A stretch of 64,000 nucleotides of DNA from Larkinella soli (GTDB lineage: Bacteria > Bacteroidota > Bacteroidia > Cytophagales > Spirosomataceae), in contig NZ_QTJY01000017.1 of assembly GCF_003703975.1 (NCBI RefSeq), positions 62,001-126,000 on the forward strand. The letters run 5' to 3'. How positions within the stretch are numbered: the first letter of the stretch is position 1; every line of letters begins with the position of its first letter. Shown here one piece after another: positions 19,290 to 29,988 of the stretch. Both the position numbers and the translations under genes were made by a program. The notes under the pieces were generated by a model that saw only the letters and a list, made by a program, of their open reading frames with translations, searched no databases and was not told the origin of the DNA.

Positions 19290-19931
19290 TCAGAACAGTT
19301 CGCTCAGATTGACGATGATCCCGGCGGAAATCCGGAACGTCGACACGTCGGCTTTATCCCCCGACTCGGCCCCGTTCAGGTCGATGGCCGACTTCCCTCC
19401 CACCTGAAAAGCGCCGTTCACGGTGATCGCCACCGGCAGCGAGAGGAAATAGTTGAGCCCGGCCCCGAGGTGCGCCGACCCGCCCCGAAAAAGAATGTTG
19501 TCGTACGTGTTGCCGTTGATGACCTGATCGATCTTGCCGGTCCGCCGGGCATAGCCGGCTTCCACAAAAGGCCGAAGGGCATGGGTGGTGGCCGAAAAAT
19601 TGAAGCGGACACCGCCCGTCAGGGTTGTAAACCGGAAGGACTCGGCATCCACGTTGTCGATGTTCATTTTCGTGGCGTCATACTGCGCGAAGAGTTCAAG
19701 CCGCTGGGTCAGCCCGAAGCCCGCCCGCAGTCCGCCCCCCAATCCATTGCCGGAGTTTTCATCCAGAAACTGAAAATAATCCGATGACCAGCCGAGCATA
19801 TGGCCCTGAAGTCCGAGGCTGAACCCTTCGGTGGAAGAACGCTGCCGGATGGCGGTCTGGGCCGAAACCAAAGCCGGAAGGAGCAAAACAAGGTTCAGAA
19901 AAAAGGGAAGCGTAAATCGATGGAGTCGCAT
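19290..19931 (-). CDS. Outer-membrane beta-barrel protein (last gene of kinase operon)
   Basis: 213 residues with a signal peptide ending VSAQ. The remainder alternates strands of aromatic and small residues (GFSLGLQGH, RLELFAQYD, TGGVRFNF, PFVEAGYA, AHLGAGLNYFLS) and ends in a terminal F, fitting an eight-stranded OmpA/OmpX-like barrel. It begins 20 bases after the second kinase gene on the same strand, so it is most likely the last gene of the operon. A structural or sensing link to the kinases is inferred from position only. Confidence 0.75.
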   Translation of the reverse strand: MRLHRFTLPFFLNLVLLLPALVSAQTAIRQRSSTEGFSLGLQGHMLGWSSDYFQFLDENSGNGLGGGLRAGFGLTQRLELFAQYDATKMNIDNVDAESFRFTTLTGGVRFNFSATTHALRPFVEAGYARRTGKIDQVINGNTYDNILFRGGSAHLGAGLNYFLSLPVAITVNGAFQVGGKSAIDLNGAESGDKADVSTFRISAGIIVNLSELF

Positions 19932-19951
19932 GGGAGAAAAGAGTTGAAGGG

Positions 19952-21742
19952 TTAAAACGTGATGATGCCGTCGCCGGTCCGGACTTCGAACGACTGACCG
20001 GCCCGAAACACCACCGGCTGCCCTTTGGATTCCTCGCTGATCGTGGCCGACCGCAGGGGAAGGGGCTGCCCGTTGACGGCATCGACCGTCAGAATGCGAA
20101 ATTCCAGCAGGTCTTTTTTTCGGAACAGCTCATTGCCGGCCCGCCGGATCCGGGTCACTTCCCCGTAGGCGGTGGCGCCTGAGGCAATGACCACCTCTCC
20201 CCCGCTCATCACCGGCCCGGCCACCCGGAAGCGGATGGCCTGCCCTTCACGGGCGTCGGCAGACGACAGATTGTCGAGCAGGGTCAGGCTGACCGGCAGC
20301 CGCCGGACGGCCACCGACCGCCGGGATGTCTCCGGCCGCGTCGGCTCGGCCACAACGGGCTCGTTTTGAACAGGTTCAGTCGGCGAAGAAACGGGCGGTT
20401 CGAGGGGCTGCGACCCGGACTGCGGCCGCCCGGCGGAGCGAGTTCCGGAGGCCGGGCCGGGGGCCGCGGGTTTCTGTGGTACGGTTTTTTTCGTCGGCGG
20501 TTCGGCGGGCGATTCTTCCGGTACCGGACGATCATTCGGCCCGGAAGCCGGTTTTTCGGCGGGCAGAGTGGCCGTAAAAGTTGGGGTTTCGCGCTTTTCT
20601 TCGGGTTTCCGGTATTTCAAAACCGGCTGTGCAGCGGTTTTGCCCTTGTTCGAAACGGCGTCGCCTTCGGAAGTGCGGTCGGTCAATAGTAATCCGAGAA
20701 ATAGCAGCGCCACGAGGGTGAGGGCGCCCGCCAGGACCAACTCCCAGCTATTCCGAAACCGGGTTCGGGCCGCTTCCATGACCTGCCGGGCCTGGGTGAG
20801 CGGGACGGCTTTTTTCCGGATCTCATCCAGTTGCCGGCGGGGTTTCATATCCAGCACCTCCGTGACCGGAACGGACGGAACGATGCGGGTCGGGTCCAGA
20901 ACGGGCGCCTGCGAGTAGAACGGCTGGAGAGCCCGCTGAAACTCTTTGGCGTCGGCAAACCGCTTTTCCGGATTTTTCTCCAGCGCCTTCTGCACGATGG
21001 CCTCCAGTTCTTTCGGGACCTGTCCGTTCAGTTTCCGGAGCGGGATGGGTTTGTGCCGCAGAATGGCCTGCATCAGTTCATAGTCGGTCCGGCTGGCAAA
21101 AGGGAGTTTCCCGCAAAGGAGTTCATACAGCAGCACCCCCATGGCGTACAGATCCGAAGCCGCCGACGGTTCCTGGCCGTCGATGAGTTCGGGGGCCATG
21201 TATTCGAGCGTTCCGACGATGCGGTTGGCCTGCGTCAGCCGCTGTTCGCCCTTGACGCGGGCGATGCCGAAGTCCATCAGTTTAATCACCCCTTCGGGCG
21301 TCAGCATCAGGTTGGCAGGTTTGATATCGCGGTGCAGGATACTTTTCCGATGGGCGTGCGCCAGTCCCTCCAGCCCCTGCCGGACGATTTCGGCCGCCAC
21401 CGGTGCCGGCAGCGAACCCGCCCGGCGGAGGAGCGATTCCAGACTTTCGCCTTCCACGTACTCCATCGCCATGAAGTAGTCGGAACCGTCCTGAAGGAAG
21501 TTGTAAACCACCGCGATATTGGGGTGATTGAGCCGGGCCAGAATCAGGGCTTCATTGCGGAATCGCTCCATAAACGACCCCTGGCTCACCAGGTGCGTAT
21601 GCAGCATCTTAACGGCTACCGGGCGTTCGAGCAGGGTGTCGGTCGCCTGGTAGACGGTGCCCATGCCGCCCTCACCCAGCAGGGATTCAACGCGGTAATG
21701 GTGGATCAGTCGGCCCTTCATGGCTGGTTTCAGAGATTGCAT
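19952..21742 (-). CDS. Hanks-type Ser/Thr protein kinase with periplasmic domain
   Basis: 596 residues. Kinase domain about 16-275: GEGGMGTV loop, K45, HRDIKPAN with catalytic D139, DFG at 157-159, then GTLEYMAPE. All catalytic residues are present. A basic juxtamembrane segment leads to one transmembrane helix (about 333-353), a long Pro/Glu/Thr-rich linker and a C-terminal domain of about 110 residues with beta pattern, expected in the periplasm. That domain is not PASTA and was not recognised. Its ATG overlaps the phosphatase stop by one base (TGATG), so they are translationally coupled. Confidence 0.93.
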   Translation of the reverse strand: MQSLKPAMKGRLIHHYRVESLLGEGGMGTVYQATDTLLERPVAVKMLHTHLVSQGSFMERFRNEALILARLNHPNIAVVYNFLQDGSDYFMAMEYVEGESLESLLRRAGSLPAPVAAEIVRQGLEGLAHAHRKSILHRDIKPANLMLTPEGVIKLMDFGIARVKGEQRLTQANRIVGTLEYMAPELIDGQEPSAASDLYAMGVLLYELLCGKLPFASRTDYELMQAILRHKPIPLRKLNGQVPKELEAIVQKALEKNPEKRFADAKEFQRALQPFYSQAPVLDPTRIVPSVPVTEVLDMKPRRQLDEIRKKAVPLTQARQVMEAARTRFRNSWELVLAGALTLVALLFLGLLLTDRTSEGDAVSNKGKTAAQPVLKYRKPEEKRETPTFTATLPAEKPASGPNDRPVPEESPAEPPTKKTVPQKPAAPGPASGTRSAGRPQSGSQPLEPPVSSPTEPVQNEPVVAEPTRPETSRRSVAVRRLPVSLTLLDNLSSADAREGQAIRFRVAGPVMSGGEVVIASGATAYGEVTRIRRAGNELFRKKDLLEFRILTVDAVNGQPLPLRSATISEESKGQPVVFRAGQSFEVRTGDGIITF

Positions 21743-22674
21743 CAGGGTAATTCGATATCACGGGTAAACGGAAGTTCGATTTCCCGGGTCTCGCTGGGCG
21801 GGGTGTCGTTCCCCGTTAGGGTGCGCTCGGCCACGACCACCGTAATGTTGTCATGACCGCCCCGGCTTTTGGCCGTCCTGACCAGTTCCTCGGCAGCTTC
21901 CGGCAGGCTGACCTGGCCCAGAATCCGGACCAGGTCTTCGTCACGGCAATATTCGTAGAGCCCGTCGGAGCAGAGGAGCAGGCGGTCGCCCGGATCGAAG
22001 GGCAGGACACAGCGCCCAAGGTCGATCCGGATGTCGGCTTTGGTTCCCATTGCATGGGTCAGGACGTTGCGTTCGGGATGGGTGATGGCGGCCTGTTCGG
22101 TGATCTCCCCCATCCGCAGCAGCTCCTGAACGTAGGTATGATCCTCGGTCAGCTGAACGATCTGGCCGTTCTTGAACAGGTAGGCCCGGCTGTCGCCCAC
22201 GTGGGCGAAAAAGAGCTGCTGGTCCTGCACCACCACGGCGGTGCAGGTGGTGCCCATCCCGCGAAAGGTCTCGTGGGTGCGTGATTCCTCGAAAATCTGC
22301 CGGTTGGCCATCTGAAAGGCCCGCATCAGGCACTTTTCGGTCGTATCACGGTGCTGAAAATATTCCCGGCTGACGATCTCGGCAGCCATCTGGCTGGCGA
22401 CCTCTCCGGCCAGGTGCCCGCCCATGCCGTCGGCCACCAGGAGCAGATAGCCCTTGAACCGGCGGAGACCCTCGTCGGCCAGCCGGACAAACAGTCCGGT
22501 ATCCTCGTTGTTCCGGCGCACGTTGCCGAGGTCGGAAACCACCACCGCGTTGAGATCCGCAGCCGACGGAGAGCCCATGGTGTCGGAATCGGCCGGAAGG
22601 ACCATTTCGTCTTTCGTTTCGGAAAGTCCCGCCTGGGTTCTGGCTCCGAAAAGGCGTTTTAAAAAATCTCTCAT
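21742..22674 (-). CDS. PP2C-family Ser/Thr protein phosphatase (Stp/PstP type)
   Basis: 310 residues from the ATG at 22674; a longer in-frame form to 22716 would overlap the upstream kinase gene. The metal-binding PP2C motifs are in order: RRNNED, VADGMGGH, VGDSRAYL, CSDGLYEY and GGHDNITVVV. The protein lacks a membrane segment and is cytoplasmic. It lies between two kinase genes and presumably removes their phosphates and those of their targets, as in other bacterial kinase-phosphatase pairs. The 50 residues before the domain are charged and of unknown role. Confidence 0.95.
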   Translation of the reverse strand: MRDFLKRLFGARTQAGLSETKDEMVLPADSDTMGSPSAADLNAVVVSDLGNVRRNNEDTGLFVRLADEGLRRFKGYLLLVADGMGGHLAGEVASQMAAEIVSREYFQHRDTTEKCLMRAFQMANRQIFEESRTHETFRGMGTTCTAVVVQDQQLFFAHVGDSRAYLFKNGQIVQLTEDHTYVQELLRMGEITEQAAITHPERNVLTHAMGTKADIRIDLGRCVLPFDPGDRLLLCSDGLYEYCRDEDLVRILGQVSLPEAAEELVRTAKSRGGHDNITVVVAERTLTGNDTPPSETREIELPFTRDIELP

Positions 22675-22697
22675 ACGATTATGGGGGTCGGATCGGG

Positions 22698-23894
22698 CTA
22701 CCGGTCGAAAAAACACTTGTATAACTGCCTGACTTCAGGATCGATGACAAACTGCTGCTCAGCTCCCCGGTGACGGATGGTAATCGGCACGGCGCGGCCG
22801 GGTATTCTCCTGACGATGAACGGTTCCCGGGTTTGCACCGAACCGTCGGGCAGGATCATCTGAAGATCAAAATCGGCATTGACCACCTCCACCTCGATTT
22901 GCTCATACCGCGTGGCCGGTCCGGTTTCCGTAGTGTTCGTCCCGTCCGGCTTTTTACCCCAGCCGATCAGGAACAGGACGGCCAACACCAGGCCCGCTCC
23001 CGCCGGCAGGTAAGAGAGCCGAACCGGAACCTGATCCAGCAACCTTCTCGCCCTCAGAACGATACCCGACTCCCGGTGGGGGGTCGTTCCGCCCGCATCC
23101 CCGCCCGAAAGCCTTTCCACGATCGCTTCGGCGGTGGGTCGGCGGGCGGGATTGTTTTGCAGGCAATCGACCATCAGCGCAGCCAGTTGCGGGGAGAGGG
23201 CCGGATTCAGAAGCCGGGGATTCGTAAACTGTCCGCGCTCGATAGACCGGCGCAGAGCGGCCGGGTGAGCCGCATCGAACGGCAGATGACCGGTAGTCAT
23301 TTCATACAGCAGCACCCCCATCGACCAGACATCCGACGGCAGTCCGCCCTGATTGCGAAACTGCTCTGGCGCCATGTATTCGGAGGTTCCCACCACGTGA
23401 CCGACCTGCGTCAGCCGGGGAGAATACTGGCTGCGGGCAATTCCGAAATCGAGCAGCTTCACCTGGCCGTTCGGGCGGACCCGAATGTTGGAGGGTTTCA
23501 GATCGCGGTGGACAATGCCCGACCGGTGCAGGAAGGCCACCGCCCCGGCGATCTGGCTCAGAATCTGCCGGGCATCGTTGTTGCCAAGCCGTTCCTTCCG
23601 CCGGATGAGATCGTCGAGCTGTTGTCCGTCCACCCATTCCATGACCAGCGCCGGGCGGTCGCCCGCGAGAGCGTATTCATACAGGGCGGCAATGTTCGGA
23701 TGCGAAATCGATGCCTGAACATAAGCTTCATTCCGGAACCGGGCCACAAACTCCGGCCGGTACAGTACCTTGACTGCAGCCGTCCCGTTCACCGGATGCT
23801 GCGCCCGAAACACCTCTCCCATGCCCCCCGCCCCGACAAACTCGGTCAGCCGGAAGCCGGAGACGGATGTGTGGAGGAGTGGATGCGGGGCCAT
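22698..23894 (-). CDS. Hanks-type Ser/Thr protein kinase, single-pass membrane
   Basis: 398 residues. Kinase domain about 14-262: GAGGMGEV loop, K42, HRDLKPSN with D131, DFG at 149-151, GTSEYMAPEQ. One transmembrane helix (about 294-312) is followed by a short periplasmic domain of about 85 residues that looks like a small beta fold. Second gene of the operon, 23 bases before the phosphatase gene. It is similar to the kinase at 19952 only in the catalytic domain, so the two probably receive different outer signals. Confidence 0.93.
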   Translation of the reverse strand: MAPHPLLHTSVSGFRLTEFVGAGGMGEVFRAQHPVNGTAAVKVLYRPEFVARFRNEAYVQASISHPNIAALYEYALAGDRPALVMEWVDGQQLDDLIRRKERLGNNDARQILSQIAGAVAFLHRSGIVHRDLKPSNIRVRPNGQVKLLDFGIARSQYSPRLTQVGHVVGTSEYMAPEQFRNQGGLPSDVWSMGVLLYEMTTGHLPFDAAHPAALRRSIERGQFTNPRLLNPALSPQLAALMVDCLQNNPARRPTAEAIVERLSGGDAGGTTPHRESGIVLRARRLLDQVPVRLSYLPAGAGLVLAVLFLIGWGKKPDGTNTTETGPATRYEQIEVEVVNADFDLQMILPDGSVQTREPFIVRRIPGRAVPITIRHRGAEQQFVIDPEVRQLYKCFFDR

Positions 23895-23903
23895 TGGGGG
23901 ACG

Positions 23904-24000
23904 GGGAGTTTAGGAGTTAAGGGGTTGGGGAGTTAAGGGGTTGGGGGGTTGGGGGAGTTTCAATTTAAATCCTCCACTCCCCAACTCCTTAATTCCCAAA
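23904..24000. repeat. G-rich direct repeats with quadruplex potential inside the operon
   Basis: The plus strand carries repeated units GAGTTAAGGGGTTGGGG with five G-runs of four or more within about 23921-23955. Downstream (23971-23997) lies an imperfect complementary copy (CCCCAACTCCTTAATTCCC). It occupies the 112-base gap between the FHA-protease gene and the first kinase, on the transcript as C-rich RNA. Confidence 0.6.
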
Positions 24001-24006
24001 TTGACT

Positions 24007-25707
24007 TCAGTCGACCACCTGCCGGCGGCCCATGAGTTCGAGGCCGTAGCGGATCGGGACCGCGAAGGTGATGCGGGTGGCGTCCTCGCGGCTGGTGCCG
24101 GCCGTGAAGATGCCGATGACGTTCCCTTCCCGGTCGAACACCGGCCCACCGCTGTTTCCGGCGCCCGTTGCATTGACCGTCAACTGGTAGTAGTCGCCGA
24201 ATTCACTGTAGTAGGCGGCCGCTTTGCCGGTGGCCTGCCCGCGGAGAATTTTACCGATGTTTCCCGGAGTTACCGTTACGTCGGGTACCTTGACGACCTG
24301 CGGGTTACGGTTTCCGAAATCGGACGAGTATTCGCCCACGAACACGTCGGGGGAGATGCCGGGGTAACCCATAACCGTCACCGCCTGACCCGGAGCCACT
24401 TCCTTATCGGCGTCCTTCAGTTTAACCGGCGTCAGGGTTTCGGTCAGGTCGATGCGGAACAGGGCCACGTCATGTTTCGGCGAAACGATGGGCTTGCCCA
24501 GCGCCGGAAACCGCTGCTCGTTCTTGTTGAAAGTCACGTCGAGGTAGGTGTTGACCCCTTCGATGAGCTTACCGGACATCGGCTTTTTACCGAAGAACTG
24601 CGTTTCGGCCGGCACCCAGCGGAAGGGCTGCACCGGTGTCGGGCTGACCTCCCATCCGTTGGCTCCCTGCACGAGCAGGGCACCGGGGAAGGCATCTTCC
24701 GGAAAGGCATAGTACGAATGCCAGGCGGCCGCCACGTGCCGGTTGGTCATGATGTGGCCCTGCGAGGAGACGACGAAACCCGTCCCGCTGGCGCCGGCCA
24801 TGGCAATCGGTTTCCCGACCTGCACGTCCCTTTTAAGGCCCAGAAGCGGCTCGATCCGGCCGGGTTCCGCTTCAATGTACATCGGGACGTTTTTGACCTG
24901 GCCGTTACTCTGCCGGACAGGCATATACTGGTGATAAATGTCGTCGCCCGTGGGGGTGTAGATCAGCTTGTAGCCGAACTCGATGAAAACCACCTTGCTG
25001 GTGTTGGCGGATGCGATCTGCTCGACGCTCAGGGCGTTATCGGTCTTCGTGACGGGCACGACCGGCTTGTTATTGATGATGACGGTTTTCTGTTCACCGA
25101 TCTTATCCCGGAACAGATAGGCCAGGGCGGAAACGGAAACCAGCACCACGGCGGCCCCCAGCAGCAGGGAGCGGGTGGTTTTCCGCCGTTCGGTGACCAT
25201 CATGCGCTCGACGGTCTGCTTTCCCAGCCCCACTTTATGCGGCAGCGCGTTCTGGTCGGCATCCTCGGATTCGGCCTGGGTTTCGGCGAGGCTGATTTCG
25301 CTGGTGGGCTTCGCCGTGATCGGCACTTCGACCACCCGCGTGCTGAGCATGAGATCGGCCGGGCGGGGGTTCAGATCGAACTGAAACACCGGTCCGCCCT
25401 GCCCCAGCTGGACCTCGTCGCCGGGTTGCAGTACCGCCGACCCGTGGACGCGGTTTTTGTTGACGAAGATGCCGTTGCGGGAGTTGTTGTCGATCACCTG
25501 GAAAACCGGCGTGCGGCCGGGTTCCTTCACAATCTTGCCGTGTTCGCGCGAAACGGTGGTGTCGCGCTCGGGGTCGAACCGGAGGTCGTTGGTGACGGCC
25601 CGCCCGAAGGTGAGTTCGGTGTATTTTTTGTAATCGAACTCTTCCACCTGGTTGGCTTTCGTGCCGGTCAGGTGACGGATTACGTAACGCTCTGTTATCG
25701 TTGCCAT
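24007..25707 (-). CDS. Membrane fusion of FHA domain and trypsin-like serine protease
   Basis: 566 residues. An FHA domain fills about 30-110, with the phosphothreonine-binding marks GR (35-36), SREH (53-56) and NNSRNG (74-79). One transmembrane helix follows (about 181-199). The rest (about 225-560) is a trypsin/HtrA-like protease with a full triad: H324 in TNRHV, D413 in HDVALF and S519 in GAGNSGGP. The N-terminus should be cytoplasmic and the protease periplasmic. No PDZ domain is seen. As first gene of the kinase-phosphatase operon it is the likely phospho-controlled effector; this link is inferred. Confidence 0.9.
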   Translation of the reverse strand: MATITERYVIRHLTGTKANQVEEFDYKKYTELTFGRAVTNDLRFDPERDTTVSREHGKIVKEPGRTPVFQVIDNNSRNGIFVNKNRVHGSAVLQPGDEVQLGQGGPVFQFDLNPRPADLMLSTRVVEVPITAKPTSEISLAETQAESEDADQNALPHKVGLGKQTVERMMVTERRKTTRSLLLGAAVVLVSVSALAYLFRDKIGEQKTVIINNKPVVPVTKTDNALSVEQIASANTSKVVFIEFGYKLIYTPTGDDIYHQYMPVRQSNGQVKNVPMYIEAEPGRIEPLLGLKRDVQVGKPIAMAGASGTGFVVSSQGHIMTNRHVAAAWHSYYAFPEDAFPGALLVQGANGWEVSPTPVQPFRWVPAETQFFGKKPMSGKLIEGVNTYLDVTFNKNEQRFPALGKPIVSPKHDVALFRIDLTETLTPVKLKDADKEVAPGQAVTVMGYPGISPDVFVGEYSSDFGNRNPQVVKVPDVTVTPGNIGKILRGQATGKAAAYYSEFGDYYQLTVNATGAGNSGGPVFDREGNVIGIFTAGTSREDATRITFAVPIRYGLELMGRRQVVD

Positions 25708-25795: not shown

Positions 25796-25861
25796 CCGTA
25801 TTCCTACCCTTTGAAAACCTGTATTTTCGCGCTATAGGAAAACCTGTATTTTAGAATACGG
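25796..25861. promoter_or_regulatory. Nested repeats in the divergent control region
   Basis: GAAAACCTGTATTTT occurs exactly twice (25813-25827 and 25838-25852, 25-base period), enclosed by a perfect inverted repeat CCGTATTC (25796-25803)/GAATACGG (25854-25861). It lies between the FHA-protease operon and the sensor kinase gene, and is a good candidate operator for one or both. Confidence 0.55.
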
Positions 25862-25919: not shown

Positions 25920-27995
25920 ATGCGATACCTTTTCCTCTTTTCTCTGTTCACTTTGTCGGTTGCAGCCCAGAACCCCGTTATCGATTCGCTTCACACCCGC
26001 CTGAAGACCCTTCCGGCAGACAGCAACCGGGTCAATACCCTGCATGAACTGGCCACCAATTACTGGTGGAACGGCTTCGACTCCCTCGCCCGCGCGACGC
26101 TGTCGGAGGCCGTCCAACTGGCCGGAAAGATTCCTTTTCAGAAAGGGGACATCCGCGCCCGGCTCGCCCTGGCCCGGATCGAAGCCGATTACCTTTCCGA
26201 TACCCGATCGGCCCACGCCCAGCTCGACACGGCCGAGCGCCTGGCCCGAACCATCGGGGATCTCTCGCTTCAGGGGCAGGTGTGCCTCCGCCGGGCGCAG
26301 CTTTACGAAAACATCATGGAGAAGCTCCCCGCATCCCGCGAGCTTCTGCAGCAAGCCCTCACCCTGGTCAGGAAGGCCGGTGACAAACGGTGGGAAGGGC
26401 AGGTGTACAATGAAATGGCGATCATGAAAATGGGCGAAGGGCAGTACGTCGAAGCGATCAATCTCTGGCTGCAGGCCCGGCGGCTTCAGGAGTCGATAAA
26501 CGATCTGAAAAGCCTGCGGGGTACCCTGCCGAACCTGGGAGCCGCCTATCTGAAACTGAACCGGTACGACGATGCACTGGCCTGCTTTGCGGAAGCCGAA
26601 AAAGTGGCCGAAAAGCTGAACGACGCGATGGTTAAGCTGTTCATCGTGGGCCGAAAAGGGGAAATTCTGGAGAAAAAAGGCCGTTTTGCCGACGCACTGG
26701 CCCTGTATCAGCAGCAGGTAAAAGCCTATAAGGACCCCTACGTTCCGGCCAGCCTGGCCCGGGCCTACGGTGCTGTAGGACGGGTGTACATCCAGTTGAA
26801 ACAATACGACAAAGCCCTCGAATTCAGCCGGCTGTCGCAGGAGACCTACCGAAAGACCGTTGAAAAAACACAGGAAGCGCTGGAACATAACGCTCAGGCC
26901 AACTTCGGCAAAATCCACCTGGCCCTGAAACAATACGACCAGGTGATTCGCTACGCCCGGGAAGGGTTGTCCTGGACGAAAGGAGTGTCCGAAATGCGGC
27001 CCGAACGGACCGAATACATCCGCCAGCTCGCCGAAGCCTATGAACACCTGCACCAGCCCGCCCGGGCGCTGTTCTATTACAAGTGGTACAAAGCCGAAGC
27101 CGACACCATGCTGAACGAACAGGCCATCCAGAAAGCAACCGTTGCCAGCATGACGTATGATTTCGAGAAAAAGCAGCAGGGGGTAAAGCTTCAGCAGGCC
27201 CGGCAGCAGGCGCTCATTCAGTCGCTGGAAAATGAAAAGCTGGAACAGTCCCGGAACTTCCTGATCGCCCTGCTGCTGCTGAGTTCGGCCACGCTCGGTT
27301 ACGTTTTCTGGAGCAACCGGCGGCTGCGGCTCAACAACGAAGAACTCTTCCGGAAGAATGCGGAAATCGAAGCGGCCCTCTTCCGGGGTCAGACCATTGA
27401 ACGCAAGCGGGTCGCAACGGAACTTCACGACAGCGTGGCCGCCAAGGTATCGGCCCTGAAATGGCGGTTCGAAGCGCTGGACACCTCCCGGTTCGACCAG
27501 GAACTTCAGCGGGAACACGCCCGCCTGCTGGATCACATGGGCGAGGTGTACGACGACATCCGGGCCATCTCGCACAACCTCATGCCGGAAATTCTGGAAA
27601 AACAGGGGCTTCAGGCGGCCCTCATCAAGCTAACGGATACCCTGAACGTTCAGAACCGGACGCAGTTTCTGCTCGAAGTGGAGGAGTCGGGGGAGGACGT
27701 CCGGGGCCGAACGGCTTATGAACTCTACGCCATCACGCTGGAACTGGTCAACAACATCCTGAAGCACGCCAATGCCCGGCAGGCCGGCATTGCGCTCCAG
27801 CGTTCGAACGGGTTTCTGACCCTGACCGTGCAGGACAACGGCCGGGGCATGTCCGAACCCAGGGCAGACCCGGGCATCGGGCTTCAGAACCTGCAGGCGC
27901 GTCTGGACCGCCTGGGCGGCACTTTCTTCATCTCCACCCCTGAACCGGGCGGAACGCGCATCAACGTCCGGGTGCCTATAGCAGCCCGTGCCTGA
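25920..27995 (+). CDS. TPR-containing sensor histidine kinase (NarL type)
   Basis: 691 residues. Signal peptide (ends VAAQ), about nine TPR-like helical pairs (about 30-410) in the periplasm, coiled coil, one transmembrane helix (about 446-464), then a HisKA_3 dimerisation domain with phosphoacceptor H503 (ELHDSV). The HATPase domain has ELVNNILKHA and GRGMSEP followed by GIGLQNL. This layout is common in Bacteroidota and pairs with NarL/LuxR regulators; the converging regulator at 27976 is the obvious partner, overlapping at the 3' end by 20 bases. Divergent from the FHA-protease operon. Confidence 0.95.
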   Translation: MRYLFLFSLFTLSVAAQNPVIDSLHTRLKTLPADSNRVNTLHELATNYWWNGFDSLARATLSEAVQLAGKIPFQKGDIRARLALARIEADYLSDTRSAHAQLDTAERLARTIGDLSLQGQVCLRRAQLYENIMEKLPASRELLQQALTLVRKAGDKRWEGQVYNEMAIMKMGEGQYVEAINLWLQARRLQESINDLKSLRGTLPNLGAAYLKLNRYDDALACFAEAEKVAEKLNDAMVKLFIVGRKGEILEKKGRFADALALYQQQVKAYKDPYVPASLARAYGAVGRVYIQLKQYDKALEFSRLSQETYRKTVEKTQEALEHNAQANFGKIHLALKQYDQVIRYAREGLSWTKGVSEMRPERTEYIRQLAEAYEHLHQPARALFYYKWYKAEADTMLNEQAIQKATVASMTYDFEKKQQGVKLQQARQQALIQSLENEKLEQSRNFLIALLLLSSATLGYVFWSNRRLRLNNEELFRKNAEIEAALFRGQTIERKRVATELHDSVAAKVSALKWRFEALDTSRFDQELQREHARLLDHMGEVYDDIRAISHNLMPEILEKQGLQAALIKLTDTLNVQNRTQFLLEVEESGEDVRGRTAYELYAITLELVNNILKHANARQAGIALQRSNGFLTLTVQDNGRGMSEPRADPGIGLQNLQARLDRLGGTFFISTPEPGGTRINVRVPIAARA

Positions 27996-28626
27996 CGGCG
28001 TATTTGATGATGCCGATGGAGTTTTTCACCCCCAGCTTGCGGAGAATATTGTGCCGGTGGGTTTCGACGGTGCCGGGGCTGATGAACAGCTTGTCGGCAA
28101 TGGCGTTGGTCGATAATTCCTGAGCAATCAGGCGGATGATCTCGATCTCGCGGTCGGTGAGCGGAGCCAGCGGGGCAGGTGCCTCGTCCGACGCCCGAAC
28201 GGCGGTCATGGGAAGGGCCACCAACTGGGTCATGACGGATTCGGAGAAGTATTTCTCCCCCCGGGCGATGGTTTTAATGGCTTTTTCCAGCTCGTTCTTG
28301 CCGGCTTTTTTCATGACGTAGCCGGAAATGCCGGCCCGGAAGGCTTCCCGGATATTGTCGGCGTCCTCCGAGACGGTCAGCATCAGCACTTTGACCATCG
28401 GAAACTGCTGCCGGATTTTGAGGGTGAGGTTGATCCCGTCGAGGTCGGGCATATTCATATCGGAAAGAACGATATCGACTTCGTTATTCTTCAGAAACTC
28501 CAGCACTTTCCGGCTGTCGTTCAGGGTACCGACCACCTCCACACTCTCGATGCGGCTTAGAAGCAGGGACAGGCTATCCAGAATAATTTCGTGATCGTCG
28601 GTGATCAGGACACGAATGGGTGACAT
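27976..28626 (-). CDS. NarL/LuxR-family response regulator
   Basis: 216 residues from the ATG at 28626. Receiver domain about 1-120 with acidic pair D10/D11, phosphoacceptor D56 (SDMNMP) and a Lys near 107. The LuxR-type helix-turn-helix (about 150-213) has LTDREIEIIRL and SPGTVETHRHNI. Likely partner of the TPR sensor kinase. Candidate targets include the neighbouring repeat-bearing control region at 25796-25861, but this is unproven. Confidence 0.95.
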   Translation of the reverse strand: MSPIRVLITDDHEIILDSLSLLLSRIESVEVVGTLNDSRKVLEFLKNNEVDIVLSDMNMPDLDGINLTLKIRQQFPMVKVLMLTVSEDADNIREAFRAGISGYVMKKAGKNELEKAIKTIARGEKYFSESVMTQLVALPMTAVRASDEAPAPLAPLTDREIEIIRLIAQELSTNAIADKLFISPGTVETHRHNILRKLGVKNSIGIIKYAVRHGLL

Positions 28627-28656
28627 AGAAATCAGGTTCGGAGGGTAGGCAAGAAT

Positions 28657-28664
28657 CAAATATA
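28657..28664 (-). promoter_or_regulatory. -7 element of the response regulator gene
   Basis: TATATTTG on the minus strand, about 31 bases before the start codon. It lies only 12 bases from the divergent -7 element at 28677. Confidence 0.5.
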
Positions 28665-29467: not shown

Positions 29468-29523
29468 GTGAAAAATGTATAGCTTTCGGATTGATTAACC
29501 TTCCCATTACCTGTAACTTACAA

Positions 29524-29988
29524 ATGCCAAACAGTTACGCCCAACTTTACATTCATCTGGTTTTTGCAGTCAAATACCGTTCCGGTCTGATTCGGCCCGC
29601 CTGGAAGGAGGACCTGTACCGGTATATCACCGGCATCATCCGAAACCAGGGCCACCAGCTGATTGCCATCAACGGCATGCCCGATCATCTGCATATCCTG
29701 ATCGGTCTGAATCCCCGACAATCCCTTTCCGATCCGATGCAGGGCATCAAAGGCGATTCCTCGCGCTGGATCAATCAGAACCGGTTCACCCCCGGCCGAT
29801 TTGAATGGCAGCAGGGCTACGGCGCCTTTTCCTACAGTCGCTCCCAGATCGATACGGTCGTCAAATATATTGAACGGTAGGAAGCGCACCATCGCAAAAC
29901 TACGTTTCTGGAGGAATACACCGCGTTTTTGACTCGTTTCGGGATCGATTTCGATGAACGGTATTTATTTCAACCGCCGGCGGAGTAA
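29524..29988 (+). pseudogene. REP-associated tyrosine transposase (IS200-like Y1), stop-interrupted
   Basis: From ATG 29524 the frame encodes a Y1 transposase: HLVFAVKYR, the metal-binding HUH as DHLHIL, GDSSRWIN, WQQGYGAFSYS, and IDTVVKYIER. A TAG at 29878-29880 then interrupts it, where relatives usually have a Gln or Lys codon. The frame resumes with EAHHRKTTFLEEY and continues to the TAA at 29986-29988, giving a normal length of about 154 residues. It is most likely inactivated by one point mutation. Hairpin repeats follow directly. Confidence 0.85.

Follow-up and report, generated by a model that had tools for sequence, protein, structure and literature searches.

The stretch analyzed here (the window) comprises 64,000 nucleotides of contig C16 from a Larkinella genome (Spirosomaceae; 6.92 Mb). 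On its minus strand, at 19290-25707, it carries an operon of five genes encoding an FHA-protease protein, two Hanks kinases (K1 and K2), a PP2C phosphatase, and a small outer-membrane β-barrel. As shown below by comparison of 45 loci, this is a conserved operon that shares a palindrome of NarL-type geometry with the gene of a TPR histidine kinase and with an operon for a membrane protein (X), an ABC exporter, and a third Hanks kinase (K3). On this sequence evidence, the system is larger than the five genes, taking in a two-component pair and an exporter-kinase operon. We tentatively propose that these genes form a dedicated envelope-response regulon with a phospho-controlled periplasmic protease, a reading that we regard as plausible, if a little short of probable.

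The architecture described in an earlier note on this DNA is confirmed. The five same-strand open reading frames (ORFs) are separated by small overlaps or gaps and by a single long gap of 112 bases, and the Pfam matches of their products all exceed the gathering score (FHA and Trypsin_2, Pkinase, PP2C, Pkinase, and OMP_b-brl). The note had also reported that the catalytic residues of both kinases, the phosphatase, and the protease are present, and this holds in every alignment row of the same type. In alignments made from selections of the 45 loci, the Lys/Asp/Asn/Asp residues of the kinases are kept in 16/16 rows for K1 and 22/22 for K2, the catalytic Asp residues of the phosphatase in 17/17, and the protease triad H324/D413/S519 in all 21 trypsin-type rows of the 23-row FHA-protein alignment. 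G35, R36, R54, H56, N78, and G79 of the FHA domain are invariant in the same 23 rows, and S53 is kept in 22 of them (Gly in one); these residues (GR, SRxH, and NG motif) we take to be the phosphothreonine contacts.

A simple hydropathy scan, applied to the window proteins and to eight loci, agrees with the predicted topology of the note, which placed the kinase domains, the phosphatase, and the FHA domain in the cytoplasm, the protease in the periplasm, and the barrel in the outer membrane. One transmembrane (TM) segment is found in each of the FHA protein (181-199), K1 (293-311, with a short tail beyond), and K2 (335-353). None is found in the phosphatase, and the N-terminus of the barrel is signal-like. 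Among the eight loci, the TM segment exceeds the threshold in 8/8 K2 proteins and in 6/8 FHA proteins (not in L065, nor in the 136-residue FHA protein of L103), and a hydrophobic barrel N-terminus does so in four.

To describe the distribution of the operon, we used the FHA-protease as query against 222 genomes of the family. Matches at E 1e-3 occurred in 72 genomes, of which the 38 at E ≤ 1e-30 were counted as carriers (36 matched over essentially the whole protein, two over the FHA part only); the remaining 34 gave short, weak matches and were excluded. The 45 loci read are those of the 38 family carriers (12 records, 25 stretches, and the window; stretches L072 and L073 repeat records already included) and of seven genomes from a 395-genome sample of the phylum.

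Co-occurrence of the five genes in relatives had been set beforehand as the test that could refute the note. The FHA protein, PP2C, and K2 were found together in 45/45 loci, a count that includes a contig ending inside K2 (L048), a phosphatase in two frames (L007), K2 genes assigned by position (L056 and L057), and a cut FHA protein (L102). A barrel gene follows in 41/45 loci. The fifth gene did not hold up as a constant member: a kinase lies between the FHA and PP2C genes in 29/45 loci and is absent from 16/45, with the qualification that the reading of L065 and L066 left out about 700-800 bases lying between these two genes. The conserved core is therefore the FHA protein, PP2C, K2, and the barrel, and the middle kinase can be missing and comes in two types. 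It is lacking in all five other Larkinella carriers, whose FHA and PP2C genes lie almost end to end. A kinase tree (56 rows after thinning) places K3 among the short middle kinases from other genera and separates it from the TM-bearing K1, with support (90/89) below the tool's mark of 95/80. At L103, the barrel is weak by BLAST, yet the Pfam domain is present.

The loci are related to one another, and 22 of the 45 remain at <80% FHA-protein identity and 14 at <65%. Pairwise distances of the FHA-protease, PP2C, K2, and barrel correlate with r of 0.87-0.97 over 37 of the 45 loci (0/2000 permutations as high; L048, L058, L063, L065, L066, L101, L102, and L103, in which a gene is missing, cut, or of another type, were excluded), which fits joint inheritance and is also compatible with plain species history.

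The system is missing from three of nine Larkinella genomes, and its gene order recurs in seven genomes of other Bacteroidota orders or classes. A search of a 390-genome sample of the order with an FHA-protease profile (E 1e-20) gave 16 matches, 15 of them in the family; the sixteenth (G415, L105) covers only a domain that replaces the protease in some loci, described below, and has no kinase match nearby. In the phylum sample, the FHA-protease (E < 1e-100) and the K2 C-terminal domain (E < 1e-25) occur in the same eight genomes, with weaker matches to the FHA part only in L103 and to the replacement domain only in L104. Since the system was not seen in other families of the order sample, yet occurs in other classes and orders of the phylum, the distribution is patchy and the system appears to jump.

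The FHA-protease consists of an FHA domain (33-102), a disordered linker (~122-182), the TM segment, and a protease domain (308-553). Its structural model (mean pLDDT 72.9, pTM 0.54) contains a confident FHA domain, a helix at 164-198 that spans the TM segment, and the protease domain, and the linker at 122-182, with a pLDDT below 50, is disordered in it. GarA and OdhI are among the solved-sequence matches of the FHA part (best 60 of 94), and, as in these proteins, a disordered segment beside the FHA domain holds conserved threonine. In GarA and OdhI the conserved Thr lies N-terminal to the FHA domain. Unlike them, the FHA domain of the operon carries a TM segment and a protease, and it scores 32.5 with the NCBIfam OdhI model vs a cut-off of 200.

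The protease appears to be the usual, and not an obligatory, partner of the FHA domain, exchangeable for other parts. The FHA proteins of L065 and L066 align over the FHA half but not over the C-terminal half, which has no trypsin domain. The replacement domain has a weak transglutaminase-like Pfam match (E 0.2, below cut-off) and, in L065, weakly resembles ProA, an anti-phage protein, over the latter's N-terminal part (53 bits vs a cut-off of 1500). Genes combining FHA with this domain lie at L065:8541-10235 and L066:9792-11486, and the domain occurs without FHA in L104 and L105. A protease-free set at L103:5968-10187 encodes the 136-residue FHA-only protein, PP2C, a PEGA-domain kinase, and a barrel. 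As the FHA domain is kept where the protease is swapped or absent, the constant part is FHA, PP2C, and kinase, joined in most loci by the barrel.

Invariant threonines were found in the FHA linker and in the PP2C tail. T123 and T135, in the linker between the FHA domain and the TM segment, are kept in 23/23 rows, and T310, in the PP2C tail, in 17/17. The motifs counted next were picked post hoc from family-level alignments, and the shuffles leave relatedness in. After deduplication, 19 of 22 FHA linkers contain TR-x-hydrophobic (shuffle mean 1.1), as do 11 of 22 PP2C tails (0.8), and 11 of 22 K2 juxtamembrane stretches contain TR (4.8). Of the six trypsin-type loci from outside the family, L097, L098, L099, and L101 have TR-x-hydrophobic in the FHA linker and L100 does not; L102 is cut. 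We infer that the conserved threonines are candidate phospho-acceptors and FHA ligands.

K2 comprises a kinase domain (16-263), the TM segment, a Pro-rich disordered linker (~358-472, about 115 residues), and a C-terminal β domain (473-596; model pLDDT 70.5). Together with the phosphatase, it resembles the pair of Stk1/PknB and Stp1, in that a TM-bearing Hanks kinase adjoins an Stp1-type PP2C, which scores 256.6 with the NCBIfam Stp1/IreP model, above the cut-off of 230. K2 differs from Stk1/PknB in its Pro-rich linker and β domain: it scores 324 with the NCBIfam Stk1/PknB PASTA kinase model vs a cut-off of 450, the match stops at residue 355, and Pfam gives no PASTA match. The β domain of the window protein matches no Pfam family, with scattered weak matches only among 25 members, and nothing among PDB sequences is better than E 0.5. 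Assignment to a known fold was accordingly rejected, and the domain apparently represents an unnamed family. Domains of this type are also seen in four stand-alone proteins (L128-L131), some with an exported-like start as judged by eye, and in a kinase without FHA match (L127). As for the phosphatase, matches of close relatives begin at residue 15, so translation probably begins at the ATG at 22674 instead. In L007 the gene reads in two overlapping frames (L007:13017-13948), reflecting a sequencing error or a broken gene.

Upstream of the operon lies a divergent promoter region, from which the TPR histidine kinase gene is read in the opposite direction. An alignment of 15 upstream regions from Larkinella, Spirosoma, and a close metagenome-assembled genome contains a conserved block with the core TAYAGG-N4-CCTRTA, which amounts to two 7-base inverted elements with a 2-base spacer. 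The same 7-2-7 inverted arrangement is given for many NarL sites of E. coli (PMC7419079, in excerpt), and the divergent HisKA_3 kinase with its neighboring receiver-GerE regulator extends this likeness to NarX/NarL systems. The operon's system differs from these in its TPR sensor, its TAYAGG half-site, and its apparent targets, which are Ser/Thr-kinase/protease and exporter-kinase operons. The histidine kinase has no close paralogue in its own genome (1513 vs 160 bits).

The positions of the palindrome tie these genes together. The 45 loci (923,570 bases) contain 48 palindromes. Of these, 47 stand in front of the gene for the FHA-protease, the TPR histidine kinase, or X, and the remaining one (L058:1914) in front of a further TPR histidine-kinase-like ORF. 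Palindromes built from shuffled half-sites (199 of 200 draws) occur anywhere 0.16 times on average, with a maximum of 3. The palindrome precedes the FHA-protease gene in 31/45 loci, and 33/45 have at least one. Of the 36 loci that have the histidine kinase, 33 contain it, and of the 9 that lack the kinase, none does (Fisher p 2.5e-7, counting as independent loci that are related and of unequal length), and 13 of the 22 loci at <80% FHA-protein identity have an exact copy. Separate palindromes, kilobases apart, precede the FHA-protease and either X or the histidine kinase in L049-L051, L056-L058, and L060-L062. In L100, outside the family, the palindrome precedes the FHA-protease, and a response regulator and TPR histidine kinase lie directly 3' of the barrel. 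When viral contigs were scanned for the operator, at least 120 stretches were returned, a result that is uninformative in so large a collection and was not used.

Within its own genome (6.9 Mb), the palindrome occurs twice, in this promoter and at C5:346196, 80 bases before the X-ABC-K3 operon (L111:10037-14212, contig C5). This operon encodes the 441-residue membrane protein X, in which domain searches recognised no domain, an ABC exporter that scores best with the NCBIfam MsbA model (327 bits vs 602 needed), and K3. X-ABC adjoins the FHA-protease gene on its upstream side in 13/45 loci and follows shortly after the barrel in two more (L067 and L068), and 12 of the 48 palindromes stand before an X gene. 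As the palindrome is common to the five-gene operon, the TPR histidine kinase gene, and the X-ABC-K3 operon, a NarL-type two-component system is probably in control.

These arrangements would also suit an explanation in which the membrane-anchored FHA protein is a scaffold. Phosphothreonine binding would recruit the protease, or a partner, to X-ABC for the export or processing of a peptide, lipid, or envelope protein, and the kinases would time the assembly. The proximity of X-ABC to the FHA-protease, the palindromes before X genes, and the grouping of K3 with the short middle kinases all speak for it. However, X was not found within the fetched loci in 30/45 cases, the window's own copy is on another contig, and X offers no recognised domain. 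We consider the scaffold unlikely and keep to the envelope-response regulon, the features of which are collected in Table 1.

Table 1. Features of the operon and its regulatory neighborhood (window positions).
Feature	Position	Strand	Evidence
FHA - TM - HtrA/trypsin-like protease, 566 aa	24007..25707	-	ORF, Pfam, alignment, model, hydropathy
Hanks kinase K1, 398 aa, variable operon member	22698..23894	-	ORF, Pfam, hydropathy, kinase tree
PP2C phosphatase, Stp1/IreP family, 324 aa	21742..22716	-	ORF, Pfam, NCBIfam, alignment
Hanks kinase K2, 596 aa	19952..21742	-	ORF, Pfam, model, hydropathy
Small outer-membrane β-barrel, signal-like N-terminus, OMP_b-brl, 213 aa	19290..19931	-	ORF, Pfam, hydropathy
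112-base gap with strong hairpin from dispersed genomic repeat	23895..24006	-	Hairpin scan, repeat count
Palindromic operator TATAGG-AAAA-CCTGTA (7-2-7), divergent promoter region	25833..25848		Upstream alignment, pattern counts
Extra half-site AAAATACAGG beside operator	25818..25827	-	Upstream alignment
TPR - HisKA_3 - HATPase histidine kinase, divergent neighbor	25920..27995	+	ORF, domain search
NarL/LuxR-type response regulator (receiver + GerE HTH), candidate operator-binding protein	27976..28659	-	ORF, domain search

The hairpin in the 112-base gap (z -3.8) is built from the repeat GGAGTTAAGGGGTTGGGG and is possibly a terminator, an attenuator, or a REP-like element. That the gap might be an element specific to the operon was rejected, the repeat being dispersed through the genome (29 matches vs 13 for a control pattern). 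An ORF near the operon, at 29491-29880 of the window, resembles by look a small Y1/REP-type transposase.

In the mechanism that we propose for the regulon, the response regulator, once phosphorylated by the TPR histidine kinase, would bind the palindromes and set expression. K2, the linker of which could span much of the periplasm, would monitor the condition of the cell wall or outer membrane, probably in concert with the barrel encoded beside it. K2, and K1 or K3, would then phosphorylate threonines in disordered cytoplasmic segments, namely T123/T135 of the FHA-protease, T310 of PP2C, and the K2 juxtamembrane segment. The FHA domain would bind these phosphothreonines either in trans or in cis, as in GarA, the FHA domain of which binds its own phosphothreonine. 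Binding would alter the assembly or exposure of the protein's own protease domain across the membrane and so turn periplasmic proteolysis up or down, and PP2C would reset the switch. In a broader and more speculative form, which we hold to be possible, this would be a transmembrane phospho-switch in which FHA binding, relayed through a single TM segment, switches an exchangeable periplasmic enzyme on or off (an HtrA-like protease or perhaps, in its place, a transglutaminase-like domain), two-component and Ser/Thr signaling are joined in one regulon, and K2 bridges the inner membrane to the barrel.

The earlier note had suggested a link between phosphorylation inside the cell and proteolysis in the periplasm, in either direction. 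The conserved gene set and the topology are consistent with such a link. Its five-gene form did not stand: the middle kinase is optional, the protease is not the sole partner of FHA, and the system reaches beyond the five genes. The wiring itself is what we infer. Between the two directions, signaling from inside to outside is favored because the FHA half is kept in 45/45 loci (cut in L102) and the protease is not.

Several observations weigh against the proposed regulon. With the protease absent from L103 and replaced in L065 and L066, proteolysis cannot be the sole output, and in L065 the hydrophobic stretch beyond FHA stays below the TM threshold. Four loci give no match for the barrel (none was found in L048, L058, L063, and L101). 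As to the threonines, the K2 juxtamembrane segment shows no enrichment of T-x-x-hydrophobic (15/22 vs a shuffle mean of 15.9), the PP2C tails of L058, L066, and L101 are without the motif, and the post hoc choice of motifs must be kept in mind. Twelve of the 45 loci have no exact palindrome, although L065 and L048 have a site with one mismatch; the 8.2-kb contig of L048 shows no histidine kinase. The palindrome count in the host's own genome is about at chance level (2 vs 1 for the control), so that the evidence lies in the positions of the sites. The response regulator is a candidate binder of the operator by its neighborhood only. Beyond the family, the system is rare and scattered, and the relatedness of the loci tempers the shuffles, the Fisher test, and the distance correlation alike.

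The opposite direction of signaling was weighed on the same evidence. A DegS-like protease could sense envelope damage and cut the K2 or K1 tails or the barrel, with the kinases then signaling inward. The best solved folds for the protease domain are HtrA proteases, including AlgW, Deg1, DegP, DegS, and HtrA1 (best 50 of 962 matches); K2 exposes its long disordered linker beyond the membrane as a possible target; and an outer-membrane protein is encoded in the same operon. DegS and AlgW are membrane-anchored HtrA proteases of envelope stress, and the operon's protein shares with them a TM anchor, an HtrA-like protease with intact triad, and the involvement of an outer-membrane protein. However, DegS senses through its PDZ domain, and no PDZ domain was found in the FHA-protease among Pfam matches up to E 0.1. 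The NCBIfam scores are likewise far below the cut-offs (27.9 vs 422.95 for DegS and 47.2 vs 416.2 for Do). The regulatory domain of the operon's protein is instead a cytoplasmic FHA domain, which would be superfluous to a purely periplasmic sensor, yet is more constant than the protease (L065, L066, and L103). An outside-in route is therefore improbable in our view, and control from inside to outside remains the preferred reading.

A role in anti-phage defense or inter-bacterial conflict, with a kinase-gated protease that kills the cell or protects its envelope, is very unlikely. It would agree with the patchy distribution and with the weak ProA match of the L065 replacement domain. PADLOC also relates both kinases strongly to the PD-T4-6 and mad6 models, the protease half to RT-Protease_XI (E 2.4e-10) and PDC-M35A, and PP2C to PDC-M21C (E 4e-11). 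These matches, however, span common kinase, protease, and phosphatase domains and are unspecific, and the barrel has none. Some genes flanking the operon are conserved in other Larkinella, and no relative of the FHA-protease was found in a pattern-based search of viral contigs or in a plasmid search. Phage or plasmid cargo was rejected, as 0/34 viral stretches from the pattern-based search were confirmed and tblastn against plasmids gave no match.

Least probable, and rejected, is a control module of a type VI secretion system (T6SS), the threonine-phosphorylation pathway of which (PpkA/PppA/Fha1, TagQRST) has the same three signaling parts, a Hanks kinase, PP2C, and FHA, and a proposed membrane or surface input (PMC4348357 and PMC3953482, in excerpts): the own genome has a T6SS, and TssC occurs in 22/38 carriers vs 59/184 non-carriers (Fisher p 0.005, relatedness ignored), but 16/38 carriers, including all five other Larkinella carriers, give no TssC match at E 1e-10, which makes such control unlikely, and the own genome's sole TssC match is on contig C32, in a cluster that has a separate PP2C, kinase, and pair of FHA proteins; the palindrome does not occur in the two stretches that cover this contig. 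The operon further differs from that pathway in its FHA domain, fused through a TM segment to a periplasmic protease, and in the addition of a barrel and two-component control. The own genome matches four Hanks kinases, two PP2C (PP2C_2 model), and three FHA proteins. The cluster on contig C32 (L109 and L110) encodes TssC and VgrG-like and ClpB-like AAA proteins, along with a Hanks kinase bearing WG repeats, PP2C, and the two FHA proteins, and constitutes a second, separate threonine-phosphorylation module.

The note's statement that no described system has exactly this set still stands: no description of the gene combination was found in the literature searched, which was judged mostly by titles and abstract openings. 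Other conflict systems with kinase, PP2C, FHA, and trypsin components have been described (PMC7159879, in excerpt). The parts of the operon are of known kinds. As far as searched, what is new is an FHA-bearing periplasmic protease encoded with kinases, phosphatase, and barrel under a palindrome common with a two-component system.

To our knowledge, the signals and targets of Hanks kinases in environmental Gram-negative bacteria are mostly open. Here, one small regulon appears to hold candidates for the input (the K2 outer domain and barrel), the eraser (PP2C), the reader (FHA), the output (protease), and two-component control, so that the full chain is testable within one organism. If the inside-to-outside direction is true, the regulon would convert a phosphorylation signal into proteolysis beyond a membrane.

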